Assembly: GCA_947497145.1 (NCBI GenBank)
Contig: CANMFQ010000002.1
Coordinates: forward strand, 186,001-250,000
DNA from: an uncultured Flavobacteriaceae bacterium
GTDB taxonomy: Bacteria > Bacteroidota > Bacteroidia > Flavobacteriales > Flavobacteriaceae
Direction of reading: 5' to 3'
Length of the DNA: 64,000 nucleotides
A program made the position numbers and the translations under genes. Under the pieces are notes generated by a model. The model did no database searches. It saw only the letters and a list, made by a program, of their open reading frames with translations, and was not told the origin of the DNA. Of the stretch, positions 14,803 to 19,897 are shown one piece after another (position 1 is the first letter of the stretch; each line of letters starts with the position of its first letter).

Positions 14803-15354
14803 TCATCTATATGACTGTTTGTTAGAAGTTTTTTTTCTTTCTTTTTGTATGATATTATCAATAAATGCGTTGGTATTCAATTCTTTCAAGGCAGCATATA
14901 GTTTTTTGTTCTGATTGGCTTTTTTTGCTAGTTCATATTTCATGGTTTGATATTGCAATCTTGCTGAATCATCATTTCGTAAAAAATTACGCATCAATAA
15001 GTGTCTTTGTAATGGTTCACTATTCTTTAAACAAACATACAGATGATGACTAATGGTGTCTAAAATTGGGTGCGATGTTTTTTTATTTCGTTTAAAAACT
15101 TCTCTATTTTCAATTCCTTGGTTTCCGTTATGATAATAGCCAATTTTTAGCAGTCCTGATTTAATTTTTTCAAAATCAGATTCATTATCGTAGCTAATAT
15201 CGATGTCTATAATTGGTTTTGCATCTAAATTGGGCACAGCTGTACTTCCTATATGTTCAATTTGGTATTCGAATCCCGTTAGGTTGTTTTCAATTGCGCC
15301 TTTTAGTTTTGCGAAATATAAAATCCAATTTGAGGTGTATTTTTCTAGTAGCAT
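14803..15354 (-). CDS. GrpB family protein (nucleotidyltransferase fold)
   Basis: A 183-residue cytoplasmic protein. The GrpB/UPF0157 signature is present: IEHIGSTAVPNLDAKPIIDIDI near residues 33-53, with the G-S and two aspartates of a nucleotidyltransferase-like site, then HHLYVCLKNSEPLQRHLLMRNFLR. The family is linked to dephospho-CoA kinase in some bacteria, but no CoA-pathway gene is adjacent. The start at a clean ATG gives the normal family length. Confidence 0.85.
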   Translation of the reverse strand: MLLEKYTSNWILYFAKLKGAIENNLTGFEYQIEHIGSTAVPNLDAKPIIDIDISYDNESDFEKIKSGLLKIGYYHNGNQGIENREVFKRNKKTSHPILDTISHHLYVCLKNSEPLQRHLLMRNFLRNDDSARLQYQTMKYELAKKANQNKKLYAALKELNTNAFIDNIIQKERKKTSNKQSYR

Positions 15355-15702
15355 AGCTTGATTAAATACTTTTTTTACGGAAAGCCCGAGTAAGATGTAA
15401 CTTTAGAATATCTAATTTACTTTTTTTTAATGGTATCCCAAAATAAAGCCTATATGTATAGTTGTCTTGAATAGCACATTAAAACGGTACTTGTTTTCCA
15501 CTAGGTAGTATCTGGTTTGAACAGCTCAATTTTTGTAATTTGAATTATTTTGATAGAAAAGATGGAAAAAGAAACAAATTTATTATTTGGGCGTTTCTGA
15601 CTAGGTGCTAGGTATCACAAAAACACACAAAAACGAAAAAAAATGCTCGTAAAAGGTGATTTTTAAATTTAATTCTTACATTAGCGCAAGTTTAAGTGCA
15701 AT
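15355..15702. other. Non-coding gap upstream of the pheA leader
   Basis: Contains the degenerate element copy B and, at 15677-15684, TACATTAG, a one-mismatch version of the Bacteroidota -7 box that could start the leader transcript. No -33 TTG is clear; GTG at 15656 is the nearest match. Nothing else is recognisable. Confidence 0.35.
15547..15620. repeat. Degenerate intergenic element, copy B
   Basis: Similar to 2231-2300 (see copy A), sharing ATTTTGATA, AAAAAG.AACAAATTTA and the GGG..TTT.TGAC core. It lies in the gap upstream of the pheA leader. No open reading frame runs through it. Confidence 0.4.
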
Positions 15703-15774
15703 ATGATTAAGCAATATTTTTATAACAGATTTTTTTTCTACTTCTTTTTTGAGAGAGGTACGGGACTGTTGTGA
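15703..15774 (+). CDS. Phe/Tyr-rich leader peptide of the aromatic amino acid operon
   Basis: A 23-codon frame starting at ATG 15703 and ending at TGA 15772. Codons 5-7 read Y-F-Y and codons 10-16 read F-F-F-Y-F-F-F, giving seven Phe and three Tyr codons among 23. It is followed by an antiterminator/terminator pair and pheA. This is the composition expected of an attenuation leader peptide whose translation senses charged tRNA-Phe and tRNA-Tyr, and the operon downstream makes exactly those two amino acids. The peptide itself probably has no function. The aromatic run alone could arise from T-rich DNA, but the correct frame, in-frame stop and paired hairpins argue against chance. Confidence 0.82.
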   Translation: MIKQYFYNRFFFYFFFERGTGLL

Positions 15775-15808
15775 TGTATTGAAAACATATAAACAATTGA
15801 AGTCCCGT
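15760..15808 (+). promoter_or_regulatory. Antiterminator helix of the pheA attenuator
   Basis: ACGGGACT at 15760-15767 is perfectly complementary to AGTCCCGT at 15801-15808. Those same bases form the 5' arm of the terminator, so the two structures exclude each other. A second short pairing, TTGT 15769-15772 with ACAA 15793-15796, would extend the helix. The left arm lies within codons 20-22 of the leader peptide: a ribosome reaching the stop covers it (terminator forms), one stalled on Phe/Tyr codons upstream leaves it free. Confidence 0.75.
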
Positions 15809-15829
15809 TTTAAACGGGGCTTTTTTTTT
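15801..15829 (+). terminator. Attenuator terminator upstream of pheA
   Basis: AGTCCCGTT (15801-15809) pairs with AACGGGGCT (15813-15821), a 9-bp stem with one G-U pair and a TTA loop, followed directly by eight T (15822-15829). It ends about 30 bases before the pheA ATG and far downstream of the previous gene, which is on the other strand, so its only plausible role is premature termination. Confidence 0.85.
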
Positions 15830-15857
15830 GCCCTTGCTTTTTAAAAAGAAGAAGAAA

Positions 15858-16685
15858 ATGAGTGCTAAAATAGCCATACAAGGAATAAAAGGATCTAACC
15901 ATCATCAGGTGGCTAAAGATTTTTATGGTGATAACATTGAGCTAGTTGAGTGTATGTCTTTTGACTACCTAGTGCAACAATTATTAAATGGTACAGCCGA
16001 CAAGGGTATTATGGCTATTGAAAATTCTATTGCAGGTTCTATTATTCCCAATTACGCCTTAGTGTCTTCTAATAACCTGCGTATTATTGGAGAGTATTAT
16101 CTCAATATACATCACAATTTAATGTTGCTTAAAGGGCAAACTATTGATGATATTGAAGAGGTACGATCGCATCCGATGGCTTTATTACAATGCAAAGAAT
16201 TTTTTCGTGCATATCCACATATTAAATTGGTAGAAGATGTTGATACCGCAGAGACGGCAAAATGCATACAAGAGCAAAAATTAAAGCATGTAGGAGCAAT
16301 TGCACCTTATGTGGCTGCCGAATTATATGACTTGAACATCGTAGCGGCAGAGATACAAACCATTAAGAATAATGCCACACGATTTATCATTGTAAAAACA
16401 AAAAATAAAGAACTTCCTAAAACGGAAATAAATAAGGCATCTGTACGGTTTGTAACCGATCATAAACGGGGTAGTTTGGCTACAGTGCTTAATGTTATGA
16501 GTGATTGCAATATGAATTTAACCAAAATACAAAGTCTCCCTATTATTGAGACGCCATGGAAATATGCCTTCTTTGTTGATATAACTTTTGAGGTATATGC
16601 AGATTTTGACAAGGCAAAAGCATTGTTGAACATCATGTTGGAAGACTTTAAAGTATTGGGTGAGTATAAAAATGGCAGATTATGA
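15858..16685 (+). CDS. pheA: Prephenate dehydratase (monofunctional, with ACT domain)
   Basis: Converts prephenate to phenylpyruvate in phenylalanine synthesis. The 275-residue protein has the two-lobed PDT domain (IQGIKGSNHHQVAKDFY, GIMAIENSIAGS, and the catalytic T-R-F in NNATRFIIV) and a C-terminal ACT domain (TDHKRGSLATVLNVM, then LTKIQSLP) for feedback by Phe. No chorismate mutase domain is attached; that activity is fused to the DAHP synthase at the end of the operon. The ATG at 15858 is chosen because the longer reading frame starts at a TTG inside the attenuator U-tract. It overlaps the aminotransferase by 4 bases (ATGA), indicating translational coupling. Confidence 0.93.
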   Translation: MSAKIAIQGIKGSNHHQVAKDFYGDNIELVECMSFDYLVQQLLNGTADKGIMAIENSIAGSIIPNYALVSSNNLRIIGEYYLNIHHNLMLLKGQTIDDIEEVRSHPMALLQCKEFFRAYPHIKLVEDVDTAETAKCIQEQKLKHVGAIAPYVAAELYDLNIVAAEIQTIKNNATRFIIVKTKNKELPKTEINKASVRFVTDHKRGSLATVLNVMSDCNMNLTKIQSLPIIETPWKYAFFVDITFEVYADFDKAKALLNIMLEDFKVLGEYKNGRL

Positions 16686-17827
16686 TTCAAACCGCAAAAA
16701 GATTAGAAACAGTTCAGGAATACTACTTCTCTAAAAAACTTAGGGAAGTACGCGGATTAATAGCAAAGGGGCGCCCTGTGATAAATATGGGCATAGGTAG
16801 CCCAGATTTGGCACCTGCCGATACGGTAATTAAAGCAATTCAAAATGCGGTTACTGATGCAGGAGCCCACCAATATCAAAGTTATCAAGGCTTACCCGAG
16901 CTTCGGGAGGCTATAGCCGATTTTTACACTTCAAAATTTGATGTTGCTGCTGATGCAGCTACTGAGATTTTGCCTTTAATGGGGTCAAAAGAAGGTATTA
17001 TGCACATCAGTATGGCTTTTTTAAATGAAGGCGATGGGGTGCTAATTCCCAATCCAGGATACCCTACCTATACTTCGGTTAGTAAATTGGTGGGAGCAAA
17101 ACCTTTGTATTATGACTTACATGAAGATATGGGGTGGTTTCCTGATTTAGCATTGTTGGAAGAAGAAGATTTGTCTGCTGTAAAATTAATGTGGGTAAGT
17201 TATCCACATATGCCTACGGGGGCTATGGCTACCAAGGGGCAAATGGAAAAGTTGGTGGCGTTCGCAAAACGCAATGATATACTATTGGTTAATGACAATC
17301 CGTATAGTTTTGTTTTGAACGAAAATCCAAGGAGTATTTTGAGTATTGACGGGGCTAAAGAGGTGGCTTTAGAGCTTAATTCTTTGAGCAAAACCTTCAA
17401 TATGGCGGGTTGGCGTGTAGGTATGGTTTTAGGAAGTGCTGCACATATAACAGCCATCTTAAAAGTAAAGAGTAATATGGATTCAGGAATGTTCTATGGC
17501 ATTCAAAAAGGAGCTATAGCAGCTTTAAAAAGTCCGCAAGCATGGTTTGATGATTTAAATGCCGTGTATGAAAAGCGAAGGGCATTAATTTTTGAGTTAG
17601 CCGATAAACTAGGATGTGTTTATGATACTACAGCTGTAGGTATGTTTGTTTGGGCAAAGTTACCCAACGGAGTGCCATCAGCTGAAAAATTTATAGATGA
17701 TGTTCTATATGATAAAGATATTTTTATAACCCCAGGAACAATTTTTGGTAGTAACGGTGAAGGTTATATCCGATTTTCATTGTGTGTCACAGAAACCAAA
17801 ATTAAAGAAGCCATAGCAAGGTTTTAA
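16682..17827 (+). CDS. Class I/II pyridoxal-phosphate aminotransferase (probable aromatic aminotransferase)
   Basis: A 381-residue fold-type I aminotransferase. It shows the substrate-binding N-terminal region (INMGIGSPDLAPAD), the NPGYPTY loop, the aspartate-tyrosine region NDNPYSF, and the PLP lysine in SLSKTFNMAGWR. Its place between pheA and tyrA suggests that it transaminates phenylpyruvate and 4-hydroxyphenylpyruvate (last step of Phe and Tyr synthesis); this is inferred from context, since the sequence resembles the broad aspartate/LL-diaminopimelate aminotransferase group. It starts within the pheA stop codon. Confidence 0.9.
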   Translation: MIQTAKRLETVQEYYFSKKLREVRGLIAKGRPVINMGIGSPDLAPADTVIKAIQNAVTDAGAHQYQSYQGLPELREAIADFYTSKFDVAADAATEILPLMGSKEGIMHISMAFLNEGDGVLIPNPGYPTYTSVSKLVGAKPLYYDLHEDMGWFPDLALLEEEDLSAVKLMWVSYPHMPTGAMATKGQMEKLVAFAKRNDILLVNDNPYSFVLNENPRSILSIDGAKEVALELNSLSKTFNMAGWRVGMVLGSAAHITAILKVKSNMDSGMFYGIQKGAIAALKSPQAWFDDLNAVYEKRRALIFELADKLGCVYDTTAVGMFVWAKLPNGVPSAEKFIDDVLYDKDIFITPGTIFGSNGEGYIRFSLCVTETKIKEAIARF

Positions 17828-17850: not shown

Positions 17851-18714
17851 ATGAACGTATTTGTAATCGGTATCGGGTTAATAGGAGGGTCAATGGCCAA
17901 AGATATTAAGCGAATTTCGCCTGATACTAAAATTTATGGCATTGATACCAACCCAGCACATGTAGATGAGGCTTTGACTTTGCAGTTGATTGATGAGAAA
18001 GCAAGCTATGATGATTTACCACTTGCTGATTTGGTGATCGTTACCGTGCCTGTAGATGTTATGCTTACTGAGCTTCCTAAAATATTAGATCTCGTTCATG
18101 ATAATTGTGTGGTGTTTGATGGGGGGTCAACAAAACATCAAATTTGTAAAGTGCTAGCAGACCATCCAAAGCGCAGAAACTATTTAGCATGCCACCCCAT
18201 AGCGGGAACAGAATTTTCGGGCCCTGCTGCTGCCATCGAAAACTTGTACAAAGGCAAAACTAATATTATTTGTGAGGTAGAAAAAACAGCTTTTAAATTA
18301 CAAGAAAGAGCTTTAGAATTGTTTCAAAAAATGGGCATGCGTATTCGGTATATGAATCCAGAGGCGCATGATAAGCACATTGCTTATGTATCACATTTGT
18401 CACACATCAGCTCTTTTATGTTAGGAAAGACGGTTATTGAGAAAGAGAAAAATGAACGTGATATTTTTGACATGGCAGGATCAGGTTTTGAGAGCACTGT
18501 GCGTTTGGCAAAAAGTTCACCAGCCATGTGGACACCCATATTTCAGCAGAACAAAAATAATGTGGTAGAGACCTTAGAAGAATACATTCAAAACCTAGAA
18601 GCGTTTAAAGAAATGCTCTTGTCTGATGATTATAAGGGTATTTATAATGAAATGGACAGTACAAATAAAATAAAGGAGATTTTAAATGGTATACCGCTTA
18701 ATGAGAAAATATAA
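17851..18714 (+). CDS. tyrA: Prephenate dehydrogenase
   Basis: Oxidatively decarboxylates prephenate to 4-hydroxyphenylpyruvate for tyrosine synthesis. The N-terminal Rossmann fold begins at once with VIGIGLIGGSMAKDI; the prephenate-site region includes CHPIAGTEFSGP and the HDKHIAYVSHLSH motif with conserved histidines. At 287 residues it is monofunctional, without chorismate mutase or ACT domains, and starts 23 bases after the aminotransferase. Confidence 0.93.
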   Translation: MNVFVIGIGLIGGSMAKDIKRISPDTKIYGIDTNPAHVDEALTLQLIDEKASYDDLPLADLVIVTVPVDVMLTELPKILDLVHDNCVVFDGGSTKHQICKVLADHPKRRNYLACHPIAGTEFSGPAAAIENLYKGKTNIICEVEKTAFKLQERALELFQKMGMRIRYMNPEAHDKHIAYVSHLSHISSFMLGKTVIEKEKNERDIFDMAGSGFESTVRLAKSSPAMWTPIFQQNKNNVVETLEEYIQNLEAFKEMLLSDDYKGIYNEMDSTNKIKEILNGIPLNEKI

Positions 18715-18814: not shown

Positions 18815-19897
18815 ATGGAGAATACAAAAGAAATGAGAACATGGTTGGATGATATGGGTTTAGATCATCCACTAGTAATAGCAGGGCCATGTAGTGCAGA
18901 AACAGAAGAGCAAGTATTGGGTATTGCACATGCATTGAAAGATACTGATGTAAACTACTACCGTGCAGGAATTTGGAAGCCAAGAACACGTCCAGGGAAT
19001 TTTGAAGGCGTAGGCGCTTTAGGATTAAAATGGTTGCAAAAGGTTAAAGAAGAAACGGGATTAAAAACCGCTACAGAGGTAGCAAACAAAGCACACGTTG
19101 AGTTGGCTTTAGAGCATGACGTAGATTTACTGTGGATTGGTGCGCGTTCAACCGTTAGTCCATTTATTATGCAAGAATTGGCAGATGCTTTAGAGGGTAC
19201 TGATAAAATTGTATTGGTAAAAAACCCTGTAAATCCTGATTTAGCTTTATGGTTAGGTGGTATCGAACGTTTGCACACGGCTGGTATTAAAAAATTGGGT
19301 GCTATTCATAGAGGATTTTCTACTTACGAAAAATCAAAATACAGAAACATACCAGAATGGCAATTGGCTATTGAATTTCAGAATAAATTCCCCGATTTAC
19401 CTTTAATTAATGATCCATCACATATTACAGGTAAACGTGATATGATTTTTGATGTGTCTCAAACTGCATTGGATTTAAATTTTGATGGTTTAATGATTGA
19501 AACACACCATGACCCTGATAACGCTTGGAGTGATGCTGCTCAGCAGGTAACGCCATCACGTTTGGTTCAGATTATGGATGATTTAAAAATTAGAAAAGAG
19601 TCTGATCCTGAGGCGGAGTTCAACAGTCAGTTGAGTAATTTAAGAGCACAAATTGATGTTATTGATAATCAATTGCTTGATACCTTAGGTAAGCGTATGA
19701 AAGTTTCTGATGGTATTGGCGCATTAAAAAAGCAGCGTAATGTTGCCGTTTTACAATCGAGCCGTTGGAATGAGATTTTAGGAAAAATGATTCTAGAAGG
19801 AGAAACTAAAGGACTTAGCGAAGAGTTTGTACTCCGTATGTTCAAAGCTATTCACCAAGAGTCAATTAACCATCAAGAGAAGGTTTTAAAAGCGTAA
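18815..19897 (+). CDS. DAHP synthase fused to chorismate mutase (type II)
   Basis: Bifunctional 360-residue enzyme. Residues about 10-265 form a type I-beta DAHP synthase barrel (VIAGPCSAETEEQV, AGIWKPRTRPGNFEG, INDPSHITGKRD), which makes the first intermediate of the shikimate pathway from PEP and erythrose 4-phosphate. Residues about 270-360 form an AroQ chorismate mutase (LSNLRAQIDVIDNQLLDTLGKRM, VLQSSRWNEIL, LRMFKAIHQESINHQ), which makes prephenate for the PheA and TyrA encoded upstream. The operon thus holds the entry step and the whole Phe/Tyr branch. A strong terminator follows. Confidence 0.94.
   Translation: MENTKEMRTWLDDMGLDHPLVIAGPCSAETEEQVLGIAHALKDTDVNYYRAGIWKPRTRPGNFEGVGALGLKWLQKVKEETGLKTATEVANKAHVELALEHDVDLLWIGARSTVSPFIMQELADALEGTDKIVLVKNPVNPDLALWLGGIERLHTAGIKKLGAIHRGFSTYEKSKYRNIPEWQLAIEFQNKFPDLPLINDPSHITGKRDMIFDVSQTALDLNFDGLMIETHHDPDNAWSDAAQQVTPSRLVQIMDDLKIRKESDPEAEFNSQLSNLRAQIDVIDNQLLDTLGKRMKVSDGIGALKKQRNVAVLQSSRWNEILGKMILEGETKGLSEEFVLRMFKAIHQESINHQEKVLKA

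Follow-up and report, generated by a model that had tools for sequence, protein, structure and literature searches.

The pheA operon in the window, that is, the whole 64,000-nucleotide stretch of DNA analysed here from an uncultured Flavobacteriaceae bacterium, is very probably controlled by ribosome-mediated transcription attenuation, judging from its sequence and from what is conserved in relatives. Upstream of pheA lies a 23-codon ORF with seven Phe and three Tyr codons, whose codons 20–22 contain an octamer (segment 2) exactly complementary to a second octamer (segment 3) that also serves the intrinsic terminator following the ORF (Table 1). The sequence-only reading had described this frame with its TGA stop, the exact complementarity and the location of the left antiterminator arm in codons 20–22, all of which were found as described; the T-run comprises nine T rather than the eight it had counted, and the pheA ATG stands 28 nt 3′ of it.

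Table 1. Features of the pheA leader region and of the genes downstream in the window (alignment A1, see text).
Feature	Position	Strand	Basis
Probable −7 promoter element TACATTAG, with one mismatch to the Bacteroidota TAnnTTTG type	15677..15684	+	
Leader peptide ORF MIKQYFYNRFFFYFFFERGTGLL, ATG start, TGA stop	15703..15774	+	Dense ORF in 102/107 family genomes; coding-type substitutions
Control codons 5–16, Tyr/Phe run, aromatic 10/12	15715..15750	+	Sequence; alignment A1
Possible protector hairpin 1:2	15724..15770	+	Minimum free energy fold
Segment 2, antiterminator left arm ACGGGACT, codons 20–22	15760..15767	+	Exact complement of segment 3; covariation
Intrinsic terminator hairpin (3:4) with T-run 15821–15829	15799..15829	+	Sequence, alignment, terminator scan
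Segment 3 AGTCCCGT, antiterminator right arm and part of terminator 5′ arm	15801..15808	+	Complementarity, covariation
pheA, prephenate dehydratase	15858..16685	+	Best NCBIfam NF008865, 185 bits, under cut-off 219
PLP-dependent aminotransferase	16682..17827	+	NCBIfam aminotransferase/PLP-enzyme models
tyrA, prephenate dehydrogenase	17851..18714	+	NF006307, 392.9 bits, above cut-off 295
DAHP synthase–chorismate mutase fusion	18815..19897	+	Models on both parts, all under cut-offs

The scan of 15400–15900 returned this hairpin as its sole terminator-like site (shuffles, mean 0.3). Its stem has 11 pairs with G–T allowed, five of them G–C, and the region 15690–15830 folds at −37.7 kcal/mol (z = −5.0), a value equalled by none of 200 shuffles. 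The possible protector hairpin would comprise the pairings 15724–15728/15766–15770 and 15740–15746/15753–15759. Neither this hairpin nor the −7-like element had been mentioned in the sequence-only reading. A sigma-70 promoter scan of 15400–15900 gave no sites. In 98 of 103 loci, the 50 nt preceding the leader ATG contain the motif TAnnTTnG, at varying positions; of 1020 windows of 50 nt drawn at random from the same loci, 87 contain it. The Bacteroidota −7 consensus is given as TAnnTTTG in PMC9723704. In 81 of the 103 loci the leader start codon has an A at −3. According to the abstract of PMC6847099, A at −3 is an initiation determinant in F. johnsoniae, and Bacteroidota mRNAs are without Shine–Dalgarno sequences.

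The downstream genes are those that had been named from the sequence, with tyrA alone passing its NCBIfam cut-off. For pheA the search began at codon 2. The aminotransferase gene matched 70 families, the best 25 of which were aminotransferase and related PLP-enzyme models, none above cut-off. In the fusion gene, DAHP synthase models aligned with residues 13–260 and chorismate mutase models with about 270–357.

The sequence-only reading had proposed to look for a conserved Phe/Tyr-rich frame in related genomes, and such a frame is indeed kept. Defining a dense leader as an ORF of 10–45 codons upstream of pheA with at least seven Phe, Tyr or Trp codons within 12 codons, we found one in 102 of the 107 Flavobacteriaceae genomes with a pheA match (120 were searched, and the 13 without a match are uninformative). 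The reverse complements gave one in 3 of 107 cases, and dinucleotide shuffles in 16 of 535. Of 197 genomes of the class searched, 57 had a pheA match and 140 were uninformative; all 50 matching genomes outside the family were examined, and 27 of them carried a dense leader, against 1 of 50 reverse complements and 3 of 250 shuffles. The other 23 lacked one at this threshold, and at a looser limit of six in 12 codons 32 of the 50 have one. Among close relatives (80 pheA loci; PheA identity, 77–84%), 79 have an ATG-initiated ORF of 15–27 codons with at least eight aromatic residues, the exception (L049) being a sequence that ends 159 nt upstream of pheA and in which no leader start is seen. These close-relative loci and the whole-genome loci partly look like the same organisms, and the genome counts are those of the whole-genome set alone.

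The gene order of the window recurs in 65 of 77 own-family loci that have a leader and about 4 kb of downstream DNA. In other families it is found in 13 of the 27 loci with a leader, five more having the same genes in a different order, and in 4 of the 23 without one. The five leaderless family genomes are L087, L122, L155, L161 and L176; where downstream DNA suffices, three of four keep the operon genes, with aminotransferase, tyrA and DAHP synthase retained in L122, L161 and L176, and none of them seen in L155. In family f13, none of the seven pheA-matching genomes (L204, L205, L208, L209, L211, L215 and L227) has a dense leader, and downstream in these loci stand an aminotransferase gene and tyrA, with no DAHP synthase match in the stretch fetched. 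A phylum-wide search of 148 genomes gave 128 with a match, 95 of these outside the class; among the 23 out-of-class loci examined (20 spread over families, together with L337, L341 and L342), two, L341 and L342, have a dense leader at the limit of at least seven in 12. Their PheA scores lie far above those of most out-of-class matches, as does that of L337, which is without a dense leader. In L341 and L342, the operon and leader look as if they had moved together.

Phe and Tyr occur in every one of the 102 family leaders and of 25 leaders from other families (among L191–L230), and Trp, absent from the leader of the window, occurs in 72 of the 102 and 7 of the 25. Because of Trp in 72 family leaders, the family-level signal is, going by codon content, broader than Phe and Tyr. 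Apart from the aromatic content the peptides differ widely, although among close relatives the peptide is kept (alignment A1). When 72 nearest-neighbour pairs of 23-codon leaders were compared over codons 5–16, the single-base changes comprised 62 that were synonymous, 28 from one aromatic residue to another and 19 others (codons differing at more than one base, 42 in all, were left out of the count), where uniform expectation would be 14.5, 7 and 78.5%. The frame thus varies in the manner of the coding frame that it had been taken for, and the substitution pattern suggests that the leader is translated. A frame arising by chance from T-rich DNA was ruled out by the shuffles, the reverse complements and the substitution classes. 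These data also bear on the reading that the attenuator is controlled by a riboswitch or a protein and that T-rich DNA has given rise to the Phe/Tyr-rich frame incidentally. The region is indeed T-rich, shuffling the upstream DNA still yields a dense frame at the rate given above, and the conservation of both RNA pairings (see below) would suit such an element. We nevertheless consider it very unlikely, since the codon changes are mainly synonymous or aromatic-to-aromatic, the Trp codons of the family leaders are not products of T-runs, and an Rfam scan of the whole window, with T-box, riboswitch and Bacteroid-trp (RF01692) models included, found no family at gathering score.

Ribosome-mediated attenuation requires mutually exclusive pairings of segment 3, and their covariation, which the earlier reading had put forward as a check, was observed for antiterminator and terminator alike. 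In alignment A1 (the window and 68 of 82 sequences, 14 being omitted, namely L081 and others nearly identical by look), giving 69 aligned leaders, paired cells make up 92.4% for the antiterminator 2:3, where five of eight pairs show two-sided change, and 92.9% for the terminator 3:4, where seven of ten do; in each case, the covariation score was matched by none of 500 shuffles. Within 2:3, pairing is weakest at the outermost position, which is unpaired in 28 of the 69. Compensatory cases include L025, with CGGAACT facing AGTTCCG and a change of Gly to Glu in the peptide, and L030, with CAGGACT facing AGTCCTG. For the protector 1:2, 93.6% of cells are paired, the covariation is 0.152 against 0.142 in shuffles and two-sided change is found in four cells, values that are confounded by the coding overlap. 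An antiterminator stretch of at least 6 bp is present in 70 of 77 loci dereplicated from 208 (of 211 records; excluded were L081, which repeats the window locus, and L219 and L225, which have a dense frame and no terminator passing score). Over these 77 loci the own arms scored 17.59, against 13.30 for permuted arms (sd, 0.30; maximum, 14.16; 1000 permutations), in a test that, like the shuffles, takes no account of the tree and in which dereplication reduces relatedness, some of it remaining. Locus by locus, the own arms were better than at least 90% of foreign arms in 34 of 77, because the arm sequence is common to many lineages.

The same pairings speak against the possibility that the short ORF works on translation or mRNA decay through coupling between leader and pheA, and not on termination. 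The leader is co-directional with pheA and close to it, and leader genes have been proposed to raise downstream expression (PMC4833913). This mechanism is nonetheless highly improbable in our judgement, given that, by our own scoring, all 102 family loci with a leader have a hairpin and T-run after it, and that segment 3 covaries with both of its partners.

The attenuation reading further predicts where the switch arm should lie relative to the control codons. Of 71 loci with at least 6 bp (L081, a repeat of the window locus, being omitted here and from the folding below), 64 have segment 2 starting 7–14 nt past the last aromatic codon; the median is 10. With shuffled arms at a looser threshold of 5 bp, a start in this range was seen in 143 of 999. 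The distance from the last aromatic codon to the arm has an sd of 2.4 nt, against 8.0 nt for that from the arm to the stop codon. The front of a ribosome lies about 10 nt from its A-site codon, and the measurements support the placing of segment 2 at about the point that a stalled ribosome would reach with its front edge. Least probable of all is an ordinary terminator preceded by a leader that encodes a functional small protein: a hairpin that only terminates would call for no attenuation, and close relatives do share the peptide, but the complementarity of the 3′ codons of the leader to segment 3 tracks the terminator arm across lineages, the arm keeps its steady distance from the last aromatic codon, the peptides vary widely outside their aromatic content, and the first ORF of 80 aa or more to be met upstream (14803–15354) is on the opposite strand.

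Folding with the ribosome footprint masked likewise agreed with attenuation by a stalled ribosome. With the 3′ arm of the terminator not yet made, upstream pairing of segment 3 averaged 0.76 for a ribosome stalled in mid-run (above 0.5 in 101 of 102 loci) and 0.70 for one stalled at the last aromatic codon (95 of 102), against 0.03 for one at the stop codon (0 of 102). In this model, the ribosome position acts as a switch as long as the 3′ terminator arm does not exist. The stalling logic of the sequence-only reading is thus supported, with the arm at the ruler distance from the aromatic run and with 2:3 blocked by the ribosome at the stop codon. In the full transcript at equilibrium, the terminator was favoured on average in every ribosome state, with a mean of 0.89 when the ribosome stalls at the last aromatic codon (0.94 in the window) and 0.73 when it stalls in mid-run; in the window itself, a mid-run stall favoured 2:3 (0.60 vs 0.16). 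Because the full-transcript equilibrium favours the terminator, the modelled antitermination must be kinetic, occurring during transcription. In ribosome-free RNA that does not yet include the 3′ arm, upstream pairing of segment 3 stands at 0.58, and the protector hairpin 1:2 therefore does not clearly enforce termination.

Attenuation in the window would then proceed as follows. RNA polymerase would begin shortly 5′ of the leader ATG, and a ribosome behind it would translate the aromatic peptide. When charged tRNA-Phe or tRNA-Tyr is scarce, the ribosome would stall in codons 5–16; in relatives with a Trp codon, scarcity of tRNA-Trp may perhaps stall it likewise. A stall would leave segment 2 free to capture segment 3 before the 3′ arm of the terminator is made, and with 2:3 formed, transcription would continue into pheA, the aminotransferase gene, tyrA and the DAHP synthase–chorismate mutase gene. 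With ample aromatic amino acids, the ribosome would reach the stop codon and cover segment 2, so that 3:4 would pair and terminate transcription. What happens in the cell is presumably decided by translation and stalling, and control by charged tRNA-Phe and tRNA-Tyr is what the codons of this leader point to; we infer both the action of the switch during transcription and which tRNAs would count.

Leader-like ORFs stand before other amino-acid genes of the same genome. A His-run leader (MRNQNTHHHFYYCAQAR) lies 156 to 102 nt before hisG (L231, contig C7) and a Trp-run leader (MQIRNTNTWWWNNSRQLS) 218 to 161 nt before trpE (L232, contig C11), each followed, by eye, by a terminator-like hairpin. 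A search of 40 family genomes gave 37 hisG and 39 trpE matches, and, in counts made without a shuffle control on 30 loci each, at least three His within seven codons were found before hisG in 29 of 30 and three Trp within seven codons before trpE in 29 of 30. A brief look at the antiterminator arms of the own-genome his and trp leaders gave 7 and 5 bp, on which no claim is built. In this genome only, a candidate Thr/Ile leader (MMITRLFYITNSCIATTATTTPLG; L238, contig C11, positions 455–529) precedes the aspartokinase/homoserine dehydrogenase gene (thrA), and we take it to be reminiscent of E. coli thrL; a candidate Ile/Val-rich leader (MVKKIVTIVIKILIIPSVG; L234, contig C24), also in this genome only, lies 329 to 269 nt before ilvD and is followed by a long inverted repeat.

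Among the closest known counterparts is the pheL–pheA attenuator of E. coli K-12, which works by leader-peptide attenuation and likewise has a Phe-rich leader peptide, a hairpin with a T-run, and pheA downstream. By our own reading, the left arm begins about 9 nt past the last Phe codon in E. coli pheL and about 14 nt in trpL, to be compared with the median of 10 in leaders of the window type. The two systems differ in that pheL has Phe and no Tyr, whereas the leader here combines Phe with Tyr, and in many relatives with Trp; in that the E. coli leader precedes pheA alone, with tyrA convergent, whereas a four-gene aromatic operon follows here; and in that chorismate mutase is fused to PheA in E. 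coli and to DAHP synthase here.

Within the same phylum, Rfam includes Bacteroid-trp (RF01692, ‘Bacteroidete tryptophan peptide leader RNA’), also a leader-peptide RNA, which differs from the pheA leader in its Trp codons and its trp operon. It appears in Table 1 of PMC2864571 and is placed 5′ of the F. psychrophilum trp operon in PMC6414381. The own-genome trp leader reached 44.6 bits against RF01692 (E = 0.014), just short of its gathering score, which is 49; L081, a pheA leader locus, gave no match to this family up to E = 1, and its leader region scored 24.7 bits (E = 0.29) against Trp_leader (RF00513), below the gathering score of 41. The available part of a 2021 study of F. psychrophilum (PMC9723704) speaks of ‘strong clues’ that amino-acid operons are attenuated through leader peptides, and of a 5′ element at pheA (and hisG) that is conserved in other Flavobacteriaceae and without an Rfam hit. 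To go by that part of the text, the pheA element is probably the same as the one described here; peptide, pairing and covariation were not found in the account compared. In the B. thetaiotaomicron transcriptome, short ORFs reminiscent of leader peptides are mentioned (PMC7366714). Our literature search, in which subscription papers and preprints are thinly covered, found no peptide with pairings for a Bacteroidota pheA leader, and one search on transcription–translation coupling in Bacteroidota gave a single paper, which dealt with a different subject. The suggestion of the sequence-only reading that this may be a new example therefore holds only in part, since for leader-peptide attenuation in the phylum Bacteroid-trp in Rfam and the clues in the F. 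psychrophilum text (PMC9723704), with its conserved 5′ element at pheA, came earlier. What the present result adds is the peptide, the pairings, the covariation, the ruler and the taxonomic range; it adds no new principle.

On balance, we think it more likely than not that leader-peptide attenuation is general for amino-acid operons across Bacteroidia, and that in many members a single pheA leader combines the signals of all three aromatic amino acids at a joint Phe/Tyr/DAHP operon, beside the near-constant His-run leaders at hisG and Trp-run leaders at trpE in Flavobacteriaceae and the candidate Thr and Ile/Val leaders. A two- or three-aromatic leader on a joint operon contrasts with the Phe-only pheL of E. 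coli, and the ruler that separates the switch arm from the control codons gives sharp predictions for ribosome stalling. If this reading is true, the first ribosome would load fast without a Shine–Dalgarno sequence and keep up with RNA polymerase on the leaders, and the pheA operon would have moved between classes along with its attenuator. For annotation, such leaders mark the starts of pheA, hisG and trpE operons in Flavobacteriaceae, and, again if true, they would offer a natural, conserved test bed for transcription–translation coupling in a phylum whose mRNAs are without Shine–Dalgarno sequences.
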